From positions 1 through 23,703 of IMG/VR virus record IMGVR_UViG_3300007346_000250: a stretch of DNA of 23,703 nucleotides, one strand, 5' to 3'. The stretch comes from a virus. A program made the translations under genes and the position numbers. The notes under the pieces were generated by a model that made no database searches, had not been told where the DNA came from, and saw nothing but the letters and a program-made list of their open reading frames with translations. Of the stretch, positions 2,470-8,755 are shown one piece after another (within the stretch, counting starts at the first letter, position 1; the number at the start of each line of letters is the position of its first letter).

Positions 2470-3842
2470 AACTTAAATCCCTCAAATGATTTCTTTGGCT
2501 TCTCCCCTTGGGGATTATAATCCGGTTCATTTCCTCCGTCAAGAAGTTCATCCTGAGCCGACTGCTCACAATCATAAAGTCTCATCTTGGCTCTGTCGAT
2601 TCCAATCACAAACCTCTTGTAAATTGTTGGATCATTATAACGATTCTTCAATTGCTTTACAAGTATCTGTCCCAGTGACTCAAGCTCGTCAGTTGAAATA
2701 AGGGCAAACATAAGATCAGCAGTAGCAGGCAAACCAAAGGATTCAGAAGTATCAGTGAGTTCAACGTCACTGCTGCCAAAACCAGAGCGAGTGGTCTGCG
2801 TGGCAGAAACGATAGGGACGTTTGCCTCGACAGCCAACCCTCGAAGCTCCTCAGCAATCGCTTTGATATAGCTATATGAATTGACAGAACCCATTTTGCT
2901 ATACCTGCTGGAAGCACATATATTAAGGTAATCAATGAAAATAATGTCAGGTCTAAATGACTTCTTAAGAGAAAGTTCGTTAAGGAGTCCACGGAAGTGG
3001 CCACAATGTGCAGAGGCGGTTGGATATTCTTTGATGATTAATGTTCCCTGTGTCTTCTTAGCAAGATTATTTACCTTAGTCTCAAACATTGTCTTAGGAA
3101 GATCAGCAATGTCCTGAATGTTGAGGTTTAAGAGATTGGCATCAATCCTCTCGGCAATCTTCTCTTCAGCCATCTCCATTGTAACGTAAAGAACGTTCTT
3201 ACCAGAAAGAAGAACAGAAGAAGCCATATGACACATAAAGAGAGACTTACCGACACCAGTCCCAGCAAGAGCAATATTGAGTGTCTTATTAGGCAATCCA
3301 CCCTTTGTAATCCTGTTAAAGTATTCCAAGTCGAAAGGAATCCTGGATTCTTTCTTATTGTAGAGTTCATATCTTAACTCGTAGTCCAGAAGATAATCAT
3401 GCCCCACATGGCTGTCAAAACTTACGGCAAGGGCATTAGAAAGAATGGACGGAATGGCATCGGGTGTCTTCTTATCGTCATTCCCATCAGCGATAGAAAT
3501 CGACTCCAGAAGTGCCAAGTAAATGGCACGGTCACGACACCACTTCTCCGTAGTGTCTAACAGCCAGTTATACTCAACCGGCTCTTCATCTAAGTAAGAA
3601 ATAATCTTAGAGATTTCCCTGAAGATTGTTTCATTGATATCTGTTCTCTTCTCAATCTCAATGGAGAGGATTTCCTTAGTTGGCACCTCATTATATTGAG
3701 TGACAAAATTGAAGATCTCTTGGAAGATAACTTGTTGATTGTTTTCTTGAAAGAACTCTTTCTTAATGAAGGGAATTGCCTTTCTAAGAAACTCCTCATT
3801 GTGAATTAAGTTTTTAAGAATGAGAATCTCAATCTTATCCAT
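2466..3842 (-). CDS. 41: Replicative DNA helicase, T4 gp41-like (DnaB family)
   Basis: This 458-aa protein has the RecA-type ATPase core of DnaB-family helicases: Walker A GTGVGKS at residues 194-200 and Walker B IIFIDYLN around residue 304. A helical N-terminal domain of about 150 residues precedes the core. It should form the hexameric helicase that unwinds DNA ahead of the lagging-strand machinery and works with a primase (gp61 in T4, not in this window). The length matches the T4 family (about 475 aa). The ATG at 3842 overlaps the stop of the oxygenase gene by eight bases. The acidic, Lys-rich C-terminal tail is usual. There is no sign of the inteins known in some environmental gp41 genes. 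Confidence 0.93.
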   Translation of the reverse strand: MDKIEILILKNLIHNEEFLRKAIPFIKKEFFQENNQQVIFQEIFNFVTQYNEVPTKEILSIEIEKRTDINETIFREISKIISYLDEEPVEYNWLLDTTEKWCRDRAIYLALLESISIADGNDDKKTPDAIPSILSNALAVSFDSHVGHDYLLDYELRYELYNKKESRIPFDLEYFNRITKGGLPNKTLNIALAGTGVGKSLFMCHMASSVLLSGKNVLYVTMEMAEEKIAERIDANLLNLNIQDIADLPKTMFETKVNNLAKKTQGTLIIKEYPTASAHCGHFRGLLNELSLKKSFRPDIIFIDYLNICASSRYSKMGSVNSYSYIKAIAEELRGLAVEANVPIVSATQTTRSGFGSSDVELTDTSESFGLPATADLMFALISTDELESLGQILVKQLKNRYNDPTIYKRFVIGIDRAKMRLYDCEQSAQDELLDGGNEPDYNPQGEKPKKSFEGFKF

Positions 3843-4356
3843 AATGAATGTATGTGCTCAAGATGTACTTTGTATTATCAGTGGGAGGGAGTCCAGCATG
3901 TGGATATTCCCAGGTGGGAGGAAACACAGTGACCCTTCCACATTCGGGTTTCACTCGTTCTCCAGACATTGTGAATTGTGTCTCTCCGTCGTTATCGTTT
4001 AGATAGAAAATAAAAGCAACTGCTCTCTTTGCTGTGTTGTAGTTATCCACATCAACATGTTCATCAAACCTTTCTTCCCCTGAGGTATTATAACGCTTCA
4101 ATCGAAATTCCTCAAGAAACTTCCACTTTGGCATGAAAGGATTCTTGAGGTCTTTCTTATACTTGTCGTATGCAACCTTTGTGAGGTTCACCAAACTTGC
4201 AACAAGATGTGGATGATGAATGTTCAAATTCAATTGATGAAAACAGGGTTTGTGATCATGATTCACAAATTCATGGTGATGAGAATCAGACTCAAAAATC
4301 TTAATCAAATTCTCACATGTTCCAGATGGAATCACATCATCATATACTTTCACCAT
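3835..4356 (-). CDS. 2OG-Fe(II) oxygenase (prolyl-hydroxylase-like)
   Basis: This 173-aa protein carries the Fe(II) triad H100-x-D102 (in FDEHVDVDNY) and H153 (in WEYPHAG). K163 is a candidate 2-oxoglutarate-binding residue. The strand AVAFIFYLND and the motif GRVTVFPP fit the double-stranded beta-helix of P4H-type enzymes, which hydroxylate a substrate using oxygen and 2-oxoglutarate. The substrate is unknown. The ATG at 4356 follows AGGAG by seven bases and is preferred over the longer reading from 4377. The gene overlaps the uvsX 3' end by 17 bases, so the two are co-transcribed. Such oxygenases are common in T4-like cyanophages. Confidence 0.87.
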   Translation of the reverse strand: MVKVYDDVIPSGTCENLIKIFESDSHHHEFVNHDHKPCFHQLNLNIHHPHLVASLVNLTKVAYDKYKKDLKNPFMPKWKFLEEFRLKRYNTSGEERFDEHVDVDNYNTAKRAVAFIFYLNDNDGETQFTMSGERVKPECGRVTVFPPTWEYPHAGLPPTDNTKYILSTYIHYG

Positions 4357-5350
4357 AAGAAAACTCCTGCTTTGCAATTGTGTCTAATTTTTCAAGAACC
4401 TCTTGGGTAAAGTAACTCTCAGGTTCTTTCATGATCTGTTTGGCATAAACCTTTTTGCCATCCATTTCATAACGACCGGCGGTATTCTTCCAGAGACCTC
4501 CCAGTTCACCCAGTTCCAACAAACCATAATATCGGTCTAAACCTCTTTCGTCATAATAAAGACGAACTGTGACATCCTTATTCTCTTTACTCAGACGCGA
4601 CTTAGCAGTCTTTGCCTTGATAAGATTTCCAATGACATCTTTTCCATCTTTCTCCTTCTTCTTAGTGAGGTAAATGATAGTCGATGAAGCATATTTGAGT
4701 CCGCTTCCTCCACCCATTTCTTTAGTTGGGACATAAGCTCCGATGACATCATAGGTATGATTAGTTACTATCATTGGTATTTTAGCTTGGCCGAGCTTTA
4801 GGGTGAGCATTCTAAATGCCCCCTTCACAAGCTGCGACTTGGTCATGTCTCGAACATTCTTCTCATCCAAAGCATCCTGAATCTCTTTCTCTGTGGATAA
4901 CATTCCCAGAGAATCTAGAACAAACATGCAAGGTTTTCTCTCTTCTTCTGGTGTTTTCTGGTAAAGGTCCACAGCCTGAAGAGCTTTCTGTCTGAACTGT
5001 TCGATAGTGACAACGTTAACAACTACAACTCGTTTAAGGTCTATTCCACGACTTGTAAGAAGAGACTTATTAACTGCTGCTTCAGTGTCAAAGTACAGAC
5101 AGTAACCATCAGGATTAGAATCCAGAAAGTTTTTAACAACAGCGAGAGAGAAGAAAGTCTTTCCAGTAGAAGACTCCCCAGCAATGGCAGTAATCTTGTT
5201 CCCAGATACACCGCCAAATATACTACCTGAAACCAGTGCGTTAAAAATGTACGAACCTGTGTCCACATAAGTCTCTGAGTCATCAATGTCAGAAGCAAGT
5301 TGTGTGTACTCGTCCCCAATCTCCTTTACAATGTCACGTAAGAAATCCAT
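4340..5350 (-). CDS. uvsX: UvsX RecA-like recombinase
   Basis: The 336-aa product starts MDFLRDIVKEIGDEY and has Walker A GESSTGKT at residues 58-65 and a Walker B strand CMFVLDSLGML near residues 141-151. The stretch MTKSQLVKGAFRML and the loop KEMGGGSGLKYAS are typical of cyanophage UvsX. It catalyses strand exchange for recombination-dependent replication, loaded by UvsY. The ATG at 5350 lies five bases after the gene 43 stop. An in-frame TTG at 5401 would extend it by 17 residues into the gene 43 tail and is less likely. The length is a little shorter than T4 UvsX (about 390 aa), as expected in cyanophages. Confidence 0.95.
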   Translation of the reverse strand: MDFLRDIVKEIGDEYTQLASDIDDSETYVDTGSYIFNALVSGSIFGGVSGNKITAIAGESSTGKTFFSLAVVKNFLDSNPDGYCLYFDTEAAVNKSLLTSRGIDLKRVVVVNVVTIEQFRQKALQAVDLYQKTPEEERKPCMFVLDSLGMLSTEKEIQDALDEKNVRDMTKSQLVKGAFRMLTLKLGQAKIPMIVTNHTYDVIGAYVPTKEMGGGSGLKYASSTIIYLTKKKEKDGKDVIGNLIKAKTAKSRLSKENKDVTVRLYYDERGLDRYYGLLELGELGGLWKNTAGRYEMDGKKVYAKQIMKEPESYFTQEVLEKLDTIAKQEFSYGESI

Positions 5351-5355
5351 ATCTT

Positions 5356-6525
5356 CTATCCGAAAAATAACTCCAAGTTTGTTGTTTTCTCTACGTTCCA
5401 ACCAATGGAATCAAGAATTGTCTTGACAGGTTCGAGAAATGCTTTTTCAAATTGTAAGTCATAATCAATGTATTTGTCAAGTCCAAGTTCATGAGGAAAC
5501 TCAGAAATAAAAGAGATAACATTTTCTCTAATAGGGTTTGCCTTCTTCAGATGAATAAACTTTATCTTCTCACCATTATCAATCATTGAATACTTATTTC
5601 CCAATCCTTTCTCTTTAATGTAATGGTTGTAAAGAAGGCAACCCCTAACATGCATTGGGCACCCCTTTCCATAGATGTGTGTGGATGATTTATGCTTCTT
5701 CAAATCAGAAACTTTACGAGGAAAGGCAATCTCCTCGATGGCCATCTTTTTGAAATCAGATCGGCAATTATCAATGAACTTGATCACATCATCTTCTGTT
5801 CCTTCCATCATCAACTTCAGGGCATCCTTGATCATCTTTCGACAGGGAGCAGGTGTGGAGGACTTCACTGCCTCAATGCCCATAATCTTCAGTTTTGGTT
5901 CCTCATAACGAACACCCTCACTGTCCCAAACATTTAGAATGTAACGCTTCTTCGCTGTCCAAATTCCACGATCGGCGATGTTCTCTCGCTTCATCTGCAT
6001 CTTCTGGTCATAAGCATTCACATAATCAGCAAGTTGGGTGTAACACTTATCAATGAATGGTTCTAGTTGATCTTTACAGATCTTGTCGATCATGCTGACT
6101 GTTTTCTCTTTATCGCCCTTAAACTTTGTCAGAAACTTATTCACAACACCTTGGAAGTTGATGTAAATGGAATCAGTGTCAGAAGCAATCACATAATCAA
6201 CACCCTCCGTCTCCAGAATCTTATTGATGAATCCATTCATCTTATTTTCAATCCATCGGATGCTGACCTGTCCAGAGAGTGTCACTGCTTCAGCATTGGC
6301 AAGTTTATAGTAACGAAACCATTCATTACCCAGAGCACCATAAGCGGAGTTTAGAGTCACCTTTCTTACAAGTTGAAAGTTACTAAACTTAGAAATGTCT
6401 TTTATGGTTTCATCTCTCAACTTCCTCAACTCATTATCAGAAAGATGAGAGTAATCGCTCTCAGATGCTGTAATTCTTTGTGGTTGCTTACCTGCTTCGT
6501 CATCCCCACCAATCAGAAATCCGAT
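5356..6525 (-). CDS. 43: DNA polymerase gp43, C-terminal part (second cistron of split gene)
   Basis: This cistron holds the part of the family B polymerase missing from 7292-8755: motif B (VRKVTLNSAYGALGN), motif C (YVIASDTDSIYI, with catalytic DTDS), the KKRY motif, thumb residues, and the C-terminal clamp-binding tail LELFFG. The reading frame is open from 6552. No ATG or GTG occurs upstream of a conserved region; the first ordinary start is TTG at 6429, without a ribosome-binding site. A perfect AAAGGAGGTG at 6531-6540 stands seven bases before an in-frame ATC at 6525, which I take as the likely, non-canonical start. The 32 residues so added include SDYSHLSDNE, which runs smoothly into the fingers helix. 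The start is the uncertain part; the identity is not. Confidence 0.85.
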   Translation of the reverse strand: MGFLIGGDDEAGKQPQRITASESDYSHLSDNELRKLRDETIKDISKFSNFQLVRKVTLNSAYGALGNEWFRYYKLANAEAVTLSGQVSIRWIENKMNGFINKILETEGVDYVIASDTDSIYINFQGVVNKFLTKFKGDKEKTVSMIDKICKDQLEPFIDKCYTQLADYVNAYDQKMQMKRENIADRGIWTAKKRYILNVWDSEGVRYEEPKLKIMGIEAVKSSTPAPCRKMIKDALKLMMEGTEDDVIKFIDNCRSDFKKMAIEEIAFPRKVSDLKKHKSSTHIYGKGCPMHVRGCLLYNHYIKEKGLGNKYSMIDNGEKIKFIHLKKANPIRENVISFISEFPHELGLDKYIDYDLQFEKAFLEPVKTILDSIGWNVEKTTNLELFFG

Positions 6526-7223
6526 GACAACACCTCCTTTATTACGAGTGGATTATCTTTGATTTGTTTATCAGTAATCCTCACCAGATTATAACCCAAC
6601 TCCTCCGCTTTTGCCATCTGCTCTTTATCTTTCTTTACTTGATTCTCCATTGTGTGCCAATAAACCCCATCCATCTCCACCAGCAAATTCATTGAGGGAA
6701 TGTAAAAATCATAAGGATGCCCATTCTTCTCAATTGAAAACTGCCTCTTATAATTTATCCCCATCTCATCACACACTTTCATAAACTTCACTTCAATGGA
6801 GGTTGAATGAAACTTTCTTCCAGCACGAAACACTCCAGTAATCCCCGACAATGCCTGTTGACGATGAAGCTCGCGTCTCTCCTTTGTAAAATAACGACTT
6901 AGAGACACAGACTTTACGTCAATGTTATGTTTCTTCATAAAATAACAGATTGCTCCCTTCGTCACTCCCAACTCTTCAGCAATCTCTTTCTGCCCCATTC
7001 CCTTCTCAAAAAACATCTCTTTCATTTCTTCTGGTGAAATCAAAACCTTTCGCGGTCGTTTCTCCAATTTGAATGTGCCATTTTTATTTCTGCTTATTGA
7101 GTTTGGGTGACTCTTTTTCAGTCTCTTATAAACTAAATTATAAGGATAAGAAAATCTCTCACAGAAAGATAATAAACTCCCATCATAATGTAAGAATTCT
7201 TCACAAATAACATCTAAATCCAT
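6513..7223 (-). CDS. Free-standing Vsr-like (EDxHD) homing endonuclease splitting gene 43
   Basis: This 236-aa protein has an N-terminal DNA-binding region with a helix-turn-helix (KEIAEELGVTKGAICYFMKK, residues 79-98). A C-terminal nuclease domain of the Vsr / EDxHD type follows: IE at 143-144, YDFYIP with D172, VEMDGVYWH with D185 and H190, and KKDKEQMAKAEELGYNLVRI from residue 197. These match the order of catalytic residues in Vsr (E, D, H, D). Homing endonucleases cut alleles lacking the insertion and so spread. The gene lies between two separate halves of the DNA polymerase gene and ends inside the open frame of the second half. A weak ribosome-binding site and a small hairpin (7226-7249) precede its ATG. 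Confidence 0.85.
   Translation of the reverse strand: MDLDVICEEFLHYDGSLLSFCERFSYPYNLVYKRLKKSHPNSISRNKNGTFKLEKRPRKVLISPEEMKEMFFEKGMGQKEIAEELGVTKGAICYFMKKHNIDVKSVSLSRYFTKERRELHRQQALSGITGVFRAGRKFHSTSIEVKFMKVCDEMGINYKRQFSIEKNGHPYDFYIPSMNLLVEMDGVYWHTMENQVKKDKEQMAKAEELGYNLVRITDKQIKDNPLVIKEVLSSDF
6531..6540 (-). promoter_or_regulatory. 43: Perfect 10-nt Shine-Dalgarno of the gp43 C-terminal cistron
   Basis: On the minus strand AAAGGAGGTG is fully complementary to the 3' end of bacterial 16S rRNA (CACCTCCTTT). It lies within the last codons of the homing endonuclease gene, where it encodes KEV. The only in-frame codon at normal spacing for polymerase is ATC (6525-6523). The GTG and TTG just after it belong to the endonuclease frame and stop after a few codons. 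Confidence 0.7.
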
Positions 7224-7225
7224 AA

Positions 7226-7249
7226 GAGTTTATCGTAATCTTCCAACTC
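7226..7249 (-). other. Short inverted repeat before the homing endonuclease start
   Basis: Within the 68-base gap between the polymerase N-terminal cistron and the endonuclease gene, minus-strand GAGTT and AACTC form complementary arms around a 14-base loop just before the ATG at 7223. GGGGAG, the only Shine-Dalgarno-like run, overlaps the upstream arm and lies far from the ATG. Weak, structured leaders are common in phage homing endonuclease genes. The gap holds no other feature that I see. Confidence 0.35.
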
Positions 7250-7291
7250 CCCATTCTAACACATCATTACCTCTCCATAACCCACCCAGTC

Positions 7292-8755
7292 TTACTTCAA
7301 CCCCCTTCTCTTCATCTCTGCCTCAATGTCAACCAACTTCTGTTTAGATTTTAACATCTCCTTCTTGAATGCCTTTCTTTCTTTATACATTCTCTCCATC
7401 AGTTCCGGAAGAAAACCTCTCTTGTCCTTACGGAACATTGCCCCATTGGCACAGACGGCATAATCCTTATACATCTCAAAGTTCACTTCCTCATTAAGGA
7501 TCTTCTCCACATTCACTGATGGGTGTCTCTCGTCCAGAAGAGTTTCCGGTGAGATGTTGTACTGCATTAGGAGGTGAGGGTACAGAGAGTTCAAATCAAA
7601 GGACACCACCCAGTCATAAGCTCCAGGAACGGGTTCTTTTACATAAGCACCTGCAAACTTAGAGTTCTTCTCTGTCATCTCCCGTGGTGGGATAACGATG
7701 TTTTGTTTCTTCAGATAATTATAGATGATGGCGTCCCACAATCCCACCTGTCCCATTGGATCATTGAAGTTCACCTTTGCGTCAAACGCCATGGTAATGA
7801 TGAGTTCAATCAGTCGGAGTTTATCCTCCAACTTGTCCACCAGTTCCACGTCAACAATGTTGTAATCGACAAACTTATCCCATCCCTTTGTGTAAAACTC
7901 TTCAAAGGTGTCAAACTCTGAGTGATCTAATTTGTTGTGTCCAAGTTCCACCTCGGCAATGTGATCCAACCGATAACTCTCTCGGTTGACGTAAGTGAAC
8001 TTCTTATAGATATCAAGATAATCAAGAGAACTCACACCCTGAATCTTGAAGGTAGTGTATCTTTTACCAGTAACATAAAGTTCACCTTCCTGAACCAATC
8101 CCCAAGGGGATAACATCTTTACTTTCTTTTCGCCAAAGACTCGTGTGATTCTTCCACAAATGTAAGGAATATCAAAGAGTCTAGTGTTCCAACCTGTCAC
8201 AACATCTGGCGTGTTCTGTGTCCACCAATAGATGAAACCATTTAGAAGGTCATACTCAGTTCCACACTCATGATAGGTGACATTCTTCTGTTTGGGTGTG
8301 TAAGGTTTCTGGCCCCAAGTGATGATCTGTTTGGTTGCAGCATTCTGAATGGTGATTAGTAAAATCTCTTCCTGACATTCCTCTGGACTGGGAAATCCAT
8401 ATTTGGTTGTAGTCTCAATGTCAAGAGAATAGATGTCCATCTTCTTCTTGTCCCATTGGATCTCATCCTCTGGGTATTTGTCAGAAATGTATTGATAGAC
8501 ATATCTCTCATTGCCATAGATCTTAAACCCATCTACACCCTCATATTTCTTAAAGAATTCACGACAATCCCTCACGGATCCGGGTTTGATGGGTTCTACC
8601 TTCTCACCATCCAATGTGCGATACTCGGTGTCTCTGTTCGTCTTAACAAACAGAGTTGGTTGATATTCTTCTCTGAGAGTTACTCTTTTACCATCTTCAT
8701 AACCACGAAGTAGGAAGGTGTTTCCTACCATCACCACACTGGTATAAAACCTCAT
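7292..8755 (-). CDS. 43: DNA polymerase gp43, N-terminal part (first cistron of split gene)
   Basis: This 487-aa protein has the N-terminal and 3'-5' exonuclease domains of T4-type family B polymerases: Exo I LDIETT (D112, E114), Exo II VVTGWNTRLFDIPYI (from residue 185) and Exo III DYNIVD (297-302). It also has polymerase motif A SFDLNSLYP (385-393). It ends with a charged helix, KQKLVDIEAEMKRRGLK, and a TAA stop, at the fingers tip before motif B. Motifs B and C are found only in the downstream cistron at 5356-6525. Both parts are probably needed to make the replicative polymerase with proofreading. The ATG at 8755 overlaps the upstream stop by four bases (ATGA). Confidence 0.92.
   Translation of the reverse strand: MRFYTSVVMVGNTFLLRGYEDGKRVTLREEYQPTLFVKTNRDTEYRTLDGEKVEPIKPGSVRDCREFFKKYEGVDGFKIYGNERYVYQYISDKYPEDEIQWDKKKMDIYSLDIETTTKYGFPSPEECQEEILLITIQNAATKQIITWGQKPYTPKQKNVTYHECGTEYDLLNGFIYWWTQNTPDVVTGWNTRLFDIPYICGRITRVFGEKKVKMLSPWGLVQEGELYVTGKRYTTFKIQGVSSLDYLDIYKKFTYVNRESYRLDHIAEVELGHNKLDHSEFDTFEEFYTKGWDKFVDYNIVDVELVDKLEDKLRLIELIITMAFDAKVNFNDPMGQVGLWDAIIYNYLKKQNIVIPPREMTEKNSKFAGAYVKEPVPGAYDWVVSFDLNSLYPHLLMQYNISPETLLDERHPSVNVEKILNEEVNFEMYKDYAVCANGAMFRKDKRGFLPELMERMYKERKAFKKEMLKSKQKLVDIEAEMKRRGLK

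Follow-up and report, generated by a model that had tools for sequence, protein, structure and literature searches.

The replicative DNA polymerase gp43 is encoded by two cistrons, 43A and 43B, in the T4-related Aeromonas phages 25 and 44RR2.8t, where the break lies at the fingertip. According to PMC2988022, a seg-type endonuclease is associated with the split gp43 of phage 25, and 43A and 43B of this phage co-purify and show polymerase activity (cited there from Petrov 2010). In Aeh1, the homing endonuclease gene mobE lies between the halves of the essential gene nrdA, and the two chains are separately translated and active (PMC2988022). Here we analyzed a stretch of 23,703 nucleotides, IMG/VR virus record IMGVR_UViG_3300007346_000250 (hereafter the window), in which gp43 is likewise divided between two cistrons and an EDxHD-type homing endonuclease gene lies between them (Table 1). 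We consider it highly probable that gp43 is produced here as two chains: an old fingertip break would have been joined by TAATG coupling and later opened by insertions, and in the window the endonuclease gene would supply the Shine–Dalgarno sequence for an ATC start.

The gp43 break and its occupants

The two cistrons jointly contain everything expected of a T4-type gp43 of DNA polymerase family B, that is, Exo I–III, motifs A, B and C, the thumb and the clamp tail. By Pfam, the first cistron contains the exonuclease and the initial third of DNA_pol_B, and the second contains more of DNA_pol_B. The first-pass annotation, made from the letters of the window, had assigned all exonuclease motifs and motif A to the N-terminal cistron and motifs B and C, the thumb and the clamp tail to the C-terminal one; both frames and their motifs were confirmed, but the codon at 6525 is ATC. 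Alignment with intact gp43, which that annotation had proposed for placing the break, maps it between motifs A and B in the fingers, between RB69/T4 residues ~509 and ~526, a segment that we take from the RB69 structure to be the tip of the fingers. The 43A/43B break of 44RR maps to about the same place; the annotation had pointed to T4-related Aeromonas phages as a precedent. Because the identical arrangement, including ATC, is found again in contigs that were assembled separately (L089/L198, L090/L201, and L205), it is not an accident of assembly. A sequencing error at ATC was also rejected, as several contigs have the same base.

Table 1. Features of the split gp43 locus in the window (positions of the whole stretch)
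Feature	Position	Strand	Remarks
gp43 N-terminal cistron	7292..8755	-	487 aa; 3'-5' exonuclease, palm motif A, first fingers helix; ends EMKRRGLK + TAA
Exonuclease motifs	8408-8428, 8162-8194, 7838-7864	-	N-terminal cistron
Motif A SFDLNSLYP	7577-7603	-	N-terminal cistron
EMKRRGLK tail of first cistron	7295..7318	-	conserved
Spacer, first cistron to endonuclease gene	7224..7291	-	68 bases; no Rfam match
EDxHD-type homing endonuclease gene	6513..7223	-	236 aa
Shine–Dalgarno AAAGGAGGTG	6531..6540	-	in last codons of endonuclease gene, 5 bases 5' of ATC
Probable start codon ATC of second cistron	6523..6525	-	same position as ATG of insert-free relatives
N-terminal extension IGFLIGG of second chain	6505..6525	-	
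gp43 C-terminal cistron	5356..6525	-	389 codons; remaining fingers, motifs B and C, thumb, clamp-binding tail LELFFG
Motif B	6325-6363	-	C-terminal cistron
Motif C	6163-6189	-	C-terminal cistron
Window junction sequence			AAAGGAGGTGTTGTCATC

A search of IMG/VR with the second cistron revealed relatives with the identical break and nothing inserted, in which the first gene ends in KRRGLK-TAA or similar and the second starts inside the stop codon (TAATGGG) as MGYLIGG; many intact gp43 genes were also found among the relatives. A pattern scan for the junction returned 106 stretches, and the newly taken loci were gp43 in 76/76. Altogether 116 distinct junctions were surveyed: the genes are adjacent in 76, parted by an insert of 70 to 2,865 bases in 37, and three were left unassigned. 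These frequencies are not population estimates, because IMG/VR contigs are mostly fragments and the junctions were sampled partly by pattern. Nearly all adjacent junctions (73 of 76) have a one-base stop/start overlap, TAATG or TAGTG, and the starts are 66 ATG and 10 GTG. One-base overlaps are known to couple the translation of two genes and to be overrepresented where the products are subunits of heteromeric complexes (PMC10666635), so TAATG would suit coupled synthesis of two chains.

Occupants of the junction are varied. They include an HNH endonuclease unrelated to that of the window (L008, L028, and L208), purM with small neighboring genes (L015, L157, L170, L181, L218, L220, L223, L226, and L247), a DNA methyltransferase (L248) and a thioredoxin-like gene (L219), both labeled by inspection, and the small ORFs (open reading frames) of the Synechococcus phage ACG-2014f. 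The purM insert is thus an auxiliary metabolic gene within a broken core gene. L032, L043, and L045 have a break with different flanks at roughly this place, which holds a 224-residue HNH-like gene.

The endonuclease of the window has a helix-turn-helix region at ~75-101 and a nuclease domain at ~140-228 with E144, D172, H190, and D199, which in sequence corresponds to the EDxHD type (a Vsr-like nuclease domain with E, D, H, and D plus a DNA-binding region). Its nuclease domain has as best solved relative I-Bth0305I, an EDxHD homing endonuclease (3r3p, E 6.5e-8), and it matches the Vsr model weakly (E 0.011). The Vsr-like homing endonuclease previously proposed between the halves is retained as an endonuclease, although I-Bth0305I is closer than Vsr; its homing activity is putative. 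Among gp43 junctions, this EDxHD gene was found in the window's own lineage only, and no closely related empty site for it was found.

The first-pass annotation had gene 43 split by this endonuclease, a claim that the relatives do not bear out. Because insert-free relatives share the break and unrelated genes fill the junction elsewhere, the endonuclease is most likely a later occupant of an already broken junction. The opposite order, in which the endonuclease broke an intact gp43 in the window's lineage and insert-free relatives are later losses, is unlikely. Loss is documented at this site, where L202 and L207 retain only 70-77 bases of the HNH element, and unrooted change counts (see below) do not distinguish gain from loss. 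However, among gp43 junctions the EDxHD gene was found in one lineage only, whereas the break is common to very diverse phages, which carry other inserts or none. In insert-free forms, moreover, the genes overlap cleanly by one base and the first ends in a ribosome-binding tail.

Halves of different ancestry seem to have been exchanged at occupied junctions, although chimeric assembly could mimic this. In L204 the first half is 99.9% like that of L008 and the second 99.6% like that of L202, while the other half in both pairs is 77-79% alike. The first halves of L238 and L240 are 100% alike, their second halves 75%. L204, L238, and L240 are all at occupied junctions. Nuclease genes have been described at exchange boundaries generally (PMC10448857).

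Two further forms of gp43 were observed. Intact genes nested among split forms (L002, L018, L029, and L031) have linkers such as VDIESQLKNRDDP and a longer first helix, as in split forms, and are possibly re-fused split genes. A second, different cyanophage break lies just after motif A (L030, L037, L040, and L063; remnant in L062 and L069): the first part ends in SISPETLVEKHELNNRIAELEKML-stop, a 188-residue HNH gene follows, and the polymerase resumes with MWKDVRKMSREEIVEELEALK. Both new ends resemble heptad (coiled-coil) segments, which are absent from intact sisters.

Translation start of the second cistron

In insert-free relatives, the KRRG codons of the first gene form a purine tract (AAGAGRAGRGG) that is the likely Shine–Dalgarno sequence of the second cistron, with a median duplex energy of -8.6 kcal/mol versus about -3 for background in-frame ATH codons. 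In the window, the frames of the endonuclease gene and the second cistron overlap by 13 bases, and the Shine–Dalgarno sequence within the former gives a duplex of -15.6 kcal/mol, the strongest of all junctions and matched by 0/5,218 background ATH codons. The string AAAGGAGG occurs once on the window's gene strand, within this site. Standard ORF calling yields 5356-6429 for the second cistron, because no in-frame ATG, GTG, or TTG lies between the stop at 6555, upstream, and TTG 6429.

In place of the usual ATG, ACG-2014f and L200 have ATC or ATT, the HNH-bearing phages have ATT, and L213 has ATA. Together with the window, these represent four unrelated insert contexts (the window; ACG-2014f/L200; the HNH element; L213). 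All such junctions have GAGG 4-7 bases upstream, with Shine–Dalgarno energies of -7.4 to -15.6 versus a background median near -3, and no close upstream canonical in-frame start is present in the window, L200, L028/L197, or L213. What looks new here is that second cistrons parted from the first by an insert often have ATC, ATT, or ATA behind a Shine–Dalgarno sequence, exactly where ATG is usual. In ACG-2014f, Syn7803C8 has GTT where Syn7803US13 has the annotated start GTG, and its GenBank C half is 52 codons short. The GenBank call of the second half in KJ019058, Syn7803C8 (L004 3202-4365), starts ~50 codons late because the apparent start is ATT. L010 and L207, whose flanks are 99.9/99.4% identical, differ at the junction: the former has TAATG and the latter a 77-base HNH-element remnant ending in GGAGGGACTT-ATT, so the element's tail appears to have brought ribosome-binding site and start together.

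The second chain of the window most likely starts at ATC. The residues immediately downstream are conserved, with GxLIGG invariant in 34/34 split C chains down to 53% identity and synonymous change in the extension much above non-synonymous change in closely related pairs. A start at TTG 6429, the first canonical in-frame start and the choice of gene finders, is quite improbable. Such a start would remove the GxLIGG extension together with the conserved DYS..SDxEL segment and leave a perfect Shine–Dalgarno sequence without a role, and in ACG-2014f the extension has synonymous and non-synonymous differences of pS 0.47-0.56 versus pN 0.07 despite an ATC or ATT start position.

Initiation at AUH (AUU, AUC, or AUA) may occur at several insert junctions. 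In a start-agnostic set, AUH starts number 0/43 in insert-free forms versus 6/35 in others (Fisher p 0.006, with related rows), and the median p over independent pairs is near 0.03; the view that AUH starts occur at inserts alone was not kept. IF3 counters non-canonical starts and acts on reinitiation (PMC2268962), and PMC5472188 describes a GTC start of sigR that is repressed by IF3. Other candidate signals were also discarded. No tRNA genes were found in the window that could provide an odd initiator or suppressor, the count of promoter-like matches inside the endonuclease gene, where a promoter for the second half might lie, is not above shuffles, and a terminator-like match at 6446-6463 is weak and within coding sequence. 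L207 has a good promoter-like match (TTGACA-17-TACTAT); promoter-like counts are near chance.

Two chains or one

The proposed history would run as follows. A fingertip break in an ancestor divided a single gp43 gene in two, and in most relatives the one-base TAATG overlap links the resulting genes. The KRRG codons of the first gene would act as ribosome-binding site for the second, so that the chains could be made in step by termination-reinitiation, and the two would assemble without a covalent bond, as by analogy in Aeromonas phage 25. The break may then have become an intergenic niche for mobile and cargo genes. In the window phage, the EDxHD endonuclease would have entered this niche, parting the second gene from the ribosome-binding site that it had used before, while its own last codons would supply the replacement AAAGGAGGTG, 5 bases before ATC at the former ATG position. 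Initiation at ATC is perhaps helped by ribosomes that have just completed the endonuclease, whose stop codon overlaps the second frame. We lean, with less assurance, toward a wider proposal: the break would be a standing site of insertion and exchange, where elements bring their own ribosome-binding site with an AUU, AUC, or AUA start, giving the second half a non-AUG start in several independent lineages and possibly setting the ratio of chains. That a lowered AUH efficiency balances the two chains is speculation.

In relatives, both halves have a dN/dS (non-synonymous to synonymous substitution) of 0.01-0.10 in all comparisons with unsaturated dS, indicating strong purifying selection, and each of the complete ACG-2014f genomes, in the records listed, has a single N part and a single C part of gp43 and no further copy. 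It is very unlikely that gp43 here is a dying pseudogene whose work is done by another polymerase; the window is only a fragment, but the catalytic motifs are all intact, the polymorphisms relative to L090 are synonymous (4/4), and the gene keeps its usual place in the replisome cluster, with regA on one side and uvsX on the other. This minus-strand, T4-type cluster comprises uvsY, a uvsW-like helicase gene, the late sigma factor, gp47, gp46, gp45, gp44, gp62, regA, Hsp20, gp43, uvsX, gp41, and mazG. A 2OG-Fe(II) oxygenase gene at 3835-4377 is flanked by uvsX and the gp41 helicase gene.

Recoding by frameshift or stop bypass could join the two frames into a single chain, and the second frame in insert-free relatives is -1 to the first and overlaps it; but the codons before the stop vary (AAG, CTG, TCT, AAC) with no common slippery sequence, the conserved elements are instead the start codon and Shine–Dalgarno sequence, and recoding over a 766-base insert is implausible, which leaves this explanation with very little probability. 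Neither Pfam nor PHROGs matched N- or C-intein segments at the break, where the N cistron ends in EMKRRGLK and the C cistron begins IGFLIGG, in line with the previous view that a split intein is unlikely. Although T4-type gene 43 can carry group I introns (phage 25 g43B and JSE; PMC2993671), it is extremely unlikely, in line with the doubts of the first-pass annotation, that the interval is a self-splicing intron removed to give one polymerase mRNA, since Rfam found no group I catalytic core or other RNA element at the gathering threshold and no intron family at E up to 10, noncoding sequence amounts to just 68 bases on one side of the endonuclease gene and a 13-base frame overlap on the other, 70-77-base remnants persist at the site in relatives, and two cistrons would remain after removal of 6526-7291 because TAA stays in frame, as in insert-free relatives.

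Several points weigh against the two-chain reading. All evidence on the split gp43, its coupling and its starts comes from sequence. Because the window is a 23.7-kb fragment, a second, intact gp43 could lie outside it. Split and intact forms are interleaved on a FastTree tree of 164 polymerases, with at least 9 split/intact changes and at least 18 changes in insert presence (unrooted counts), so both states are labile. AlphaFold modeled the C chain alone poorly (mean pLDDT 65.6), with the extension disordered, and at this confidence nothing can be said of the contacts of the extension. As 26 of 37 inserts keep ATG, GTG, or TTG, an AUH start is not required. The ancestral break itself may have been made by some endonuclease.

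Comparison with known systems

A broken core replication gene is usually taken as a curiosity or an annotation error. Here, split gp43 is stably kept in many lineages of marine cyanophages, with its coupled overlap, conserved extension and varied inserts. It would provide a series of natural two-chain polymerases and is a clear example of inserts landing in an essential gene. If initiation at AUC or AUU is true, the second half is cut short in phage annotation, as happened in ACG-2014f Syn7803C8, and the junction would be a test of how strong Shine–Dalgarno sequences rescue non-AUG starts.

Among the matches listed from 50,697 cultured phage records, the extension was matched solely by ACG-2014f genomes, and on that listing these are the only cultured phages sharing the window's junction. 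ACG-2014f (Atlauavirus; KJ019085 and relatives) has the break at the same codon, the RRG tail, the IGxLIGG extension and a similar gene order, and GenBank annotates two gp43 CDS (coding sequences). It differs in having two small ORFs as insert, no endonuclease, and an ATC or ATT start with a weaker Shine–Dalgarno sequence. The first-pass annotation's cyanophage polymerase of two separately translated chains stands as the probable reading, but it is not unique, since ACG-2014f shares the break and the Aeromonas phages are analogous. The Aeromonas split gp43 belongs to a distant lineage, with a plain ATG for 43B, a GIY-YIG endonuclease and no GxLIGG extension, and 44RR has an untranslated spacer between the halves, unlike the window. 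Aeh1 nrdA/mobE involves another gene and another endonuclease family, and its split is credited to insertion. The likeness to I-Bth0305I and other EDxHD homing endonucleases lies in the nuclease domain, with E, D, H, and D in place; 3r3p is a mobile intron protein according to PDB, whereas the endonuclease of the window is free-standing between gp43 halves and its cleavage is putative. Finally, infC is an AUU/AUC-initiated gene, to which the probable AUH start of the window is likened on its sequence features.

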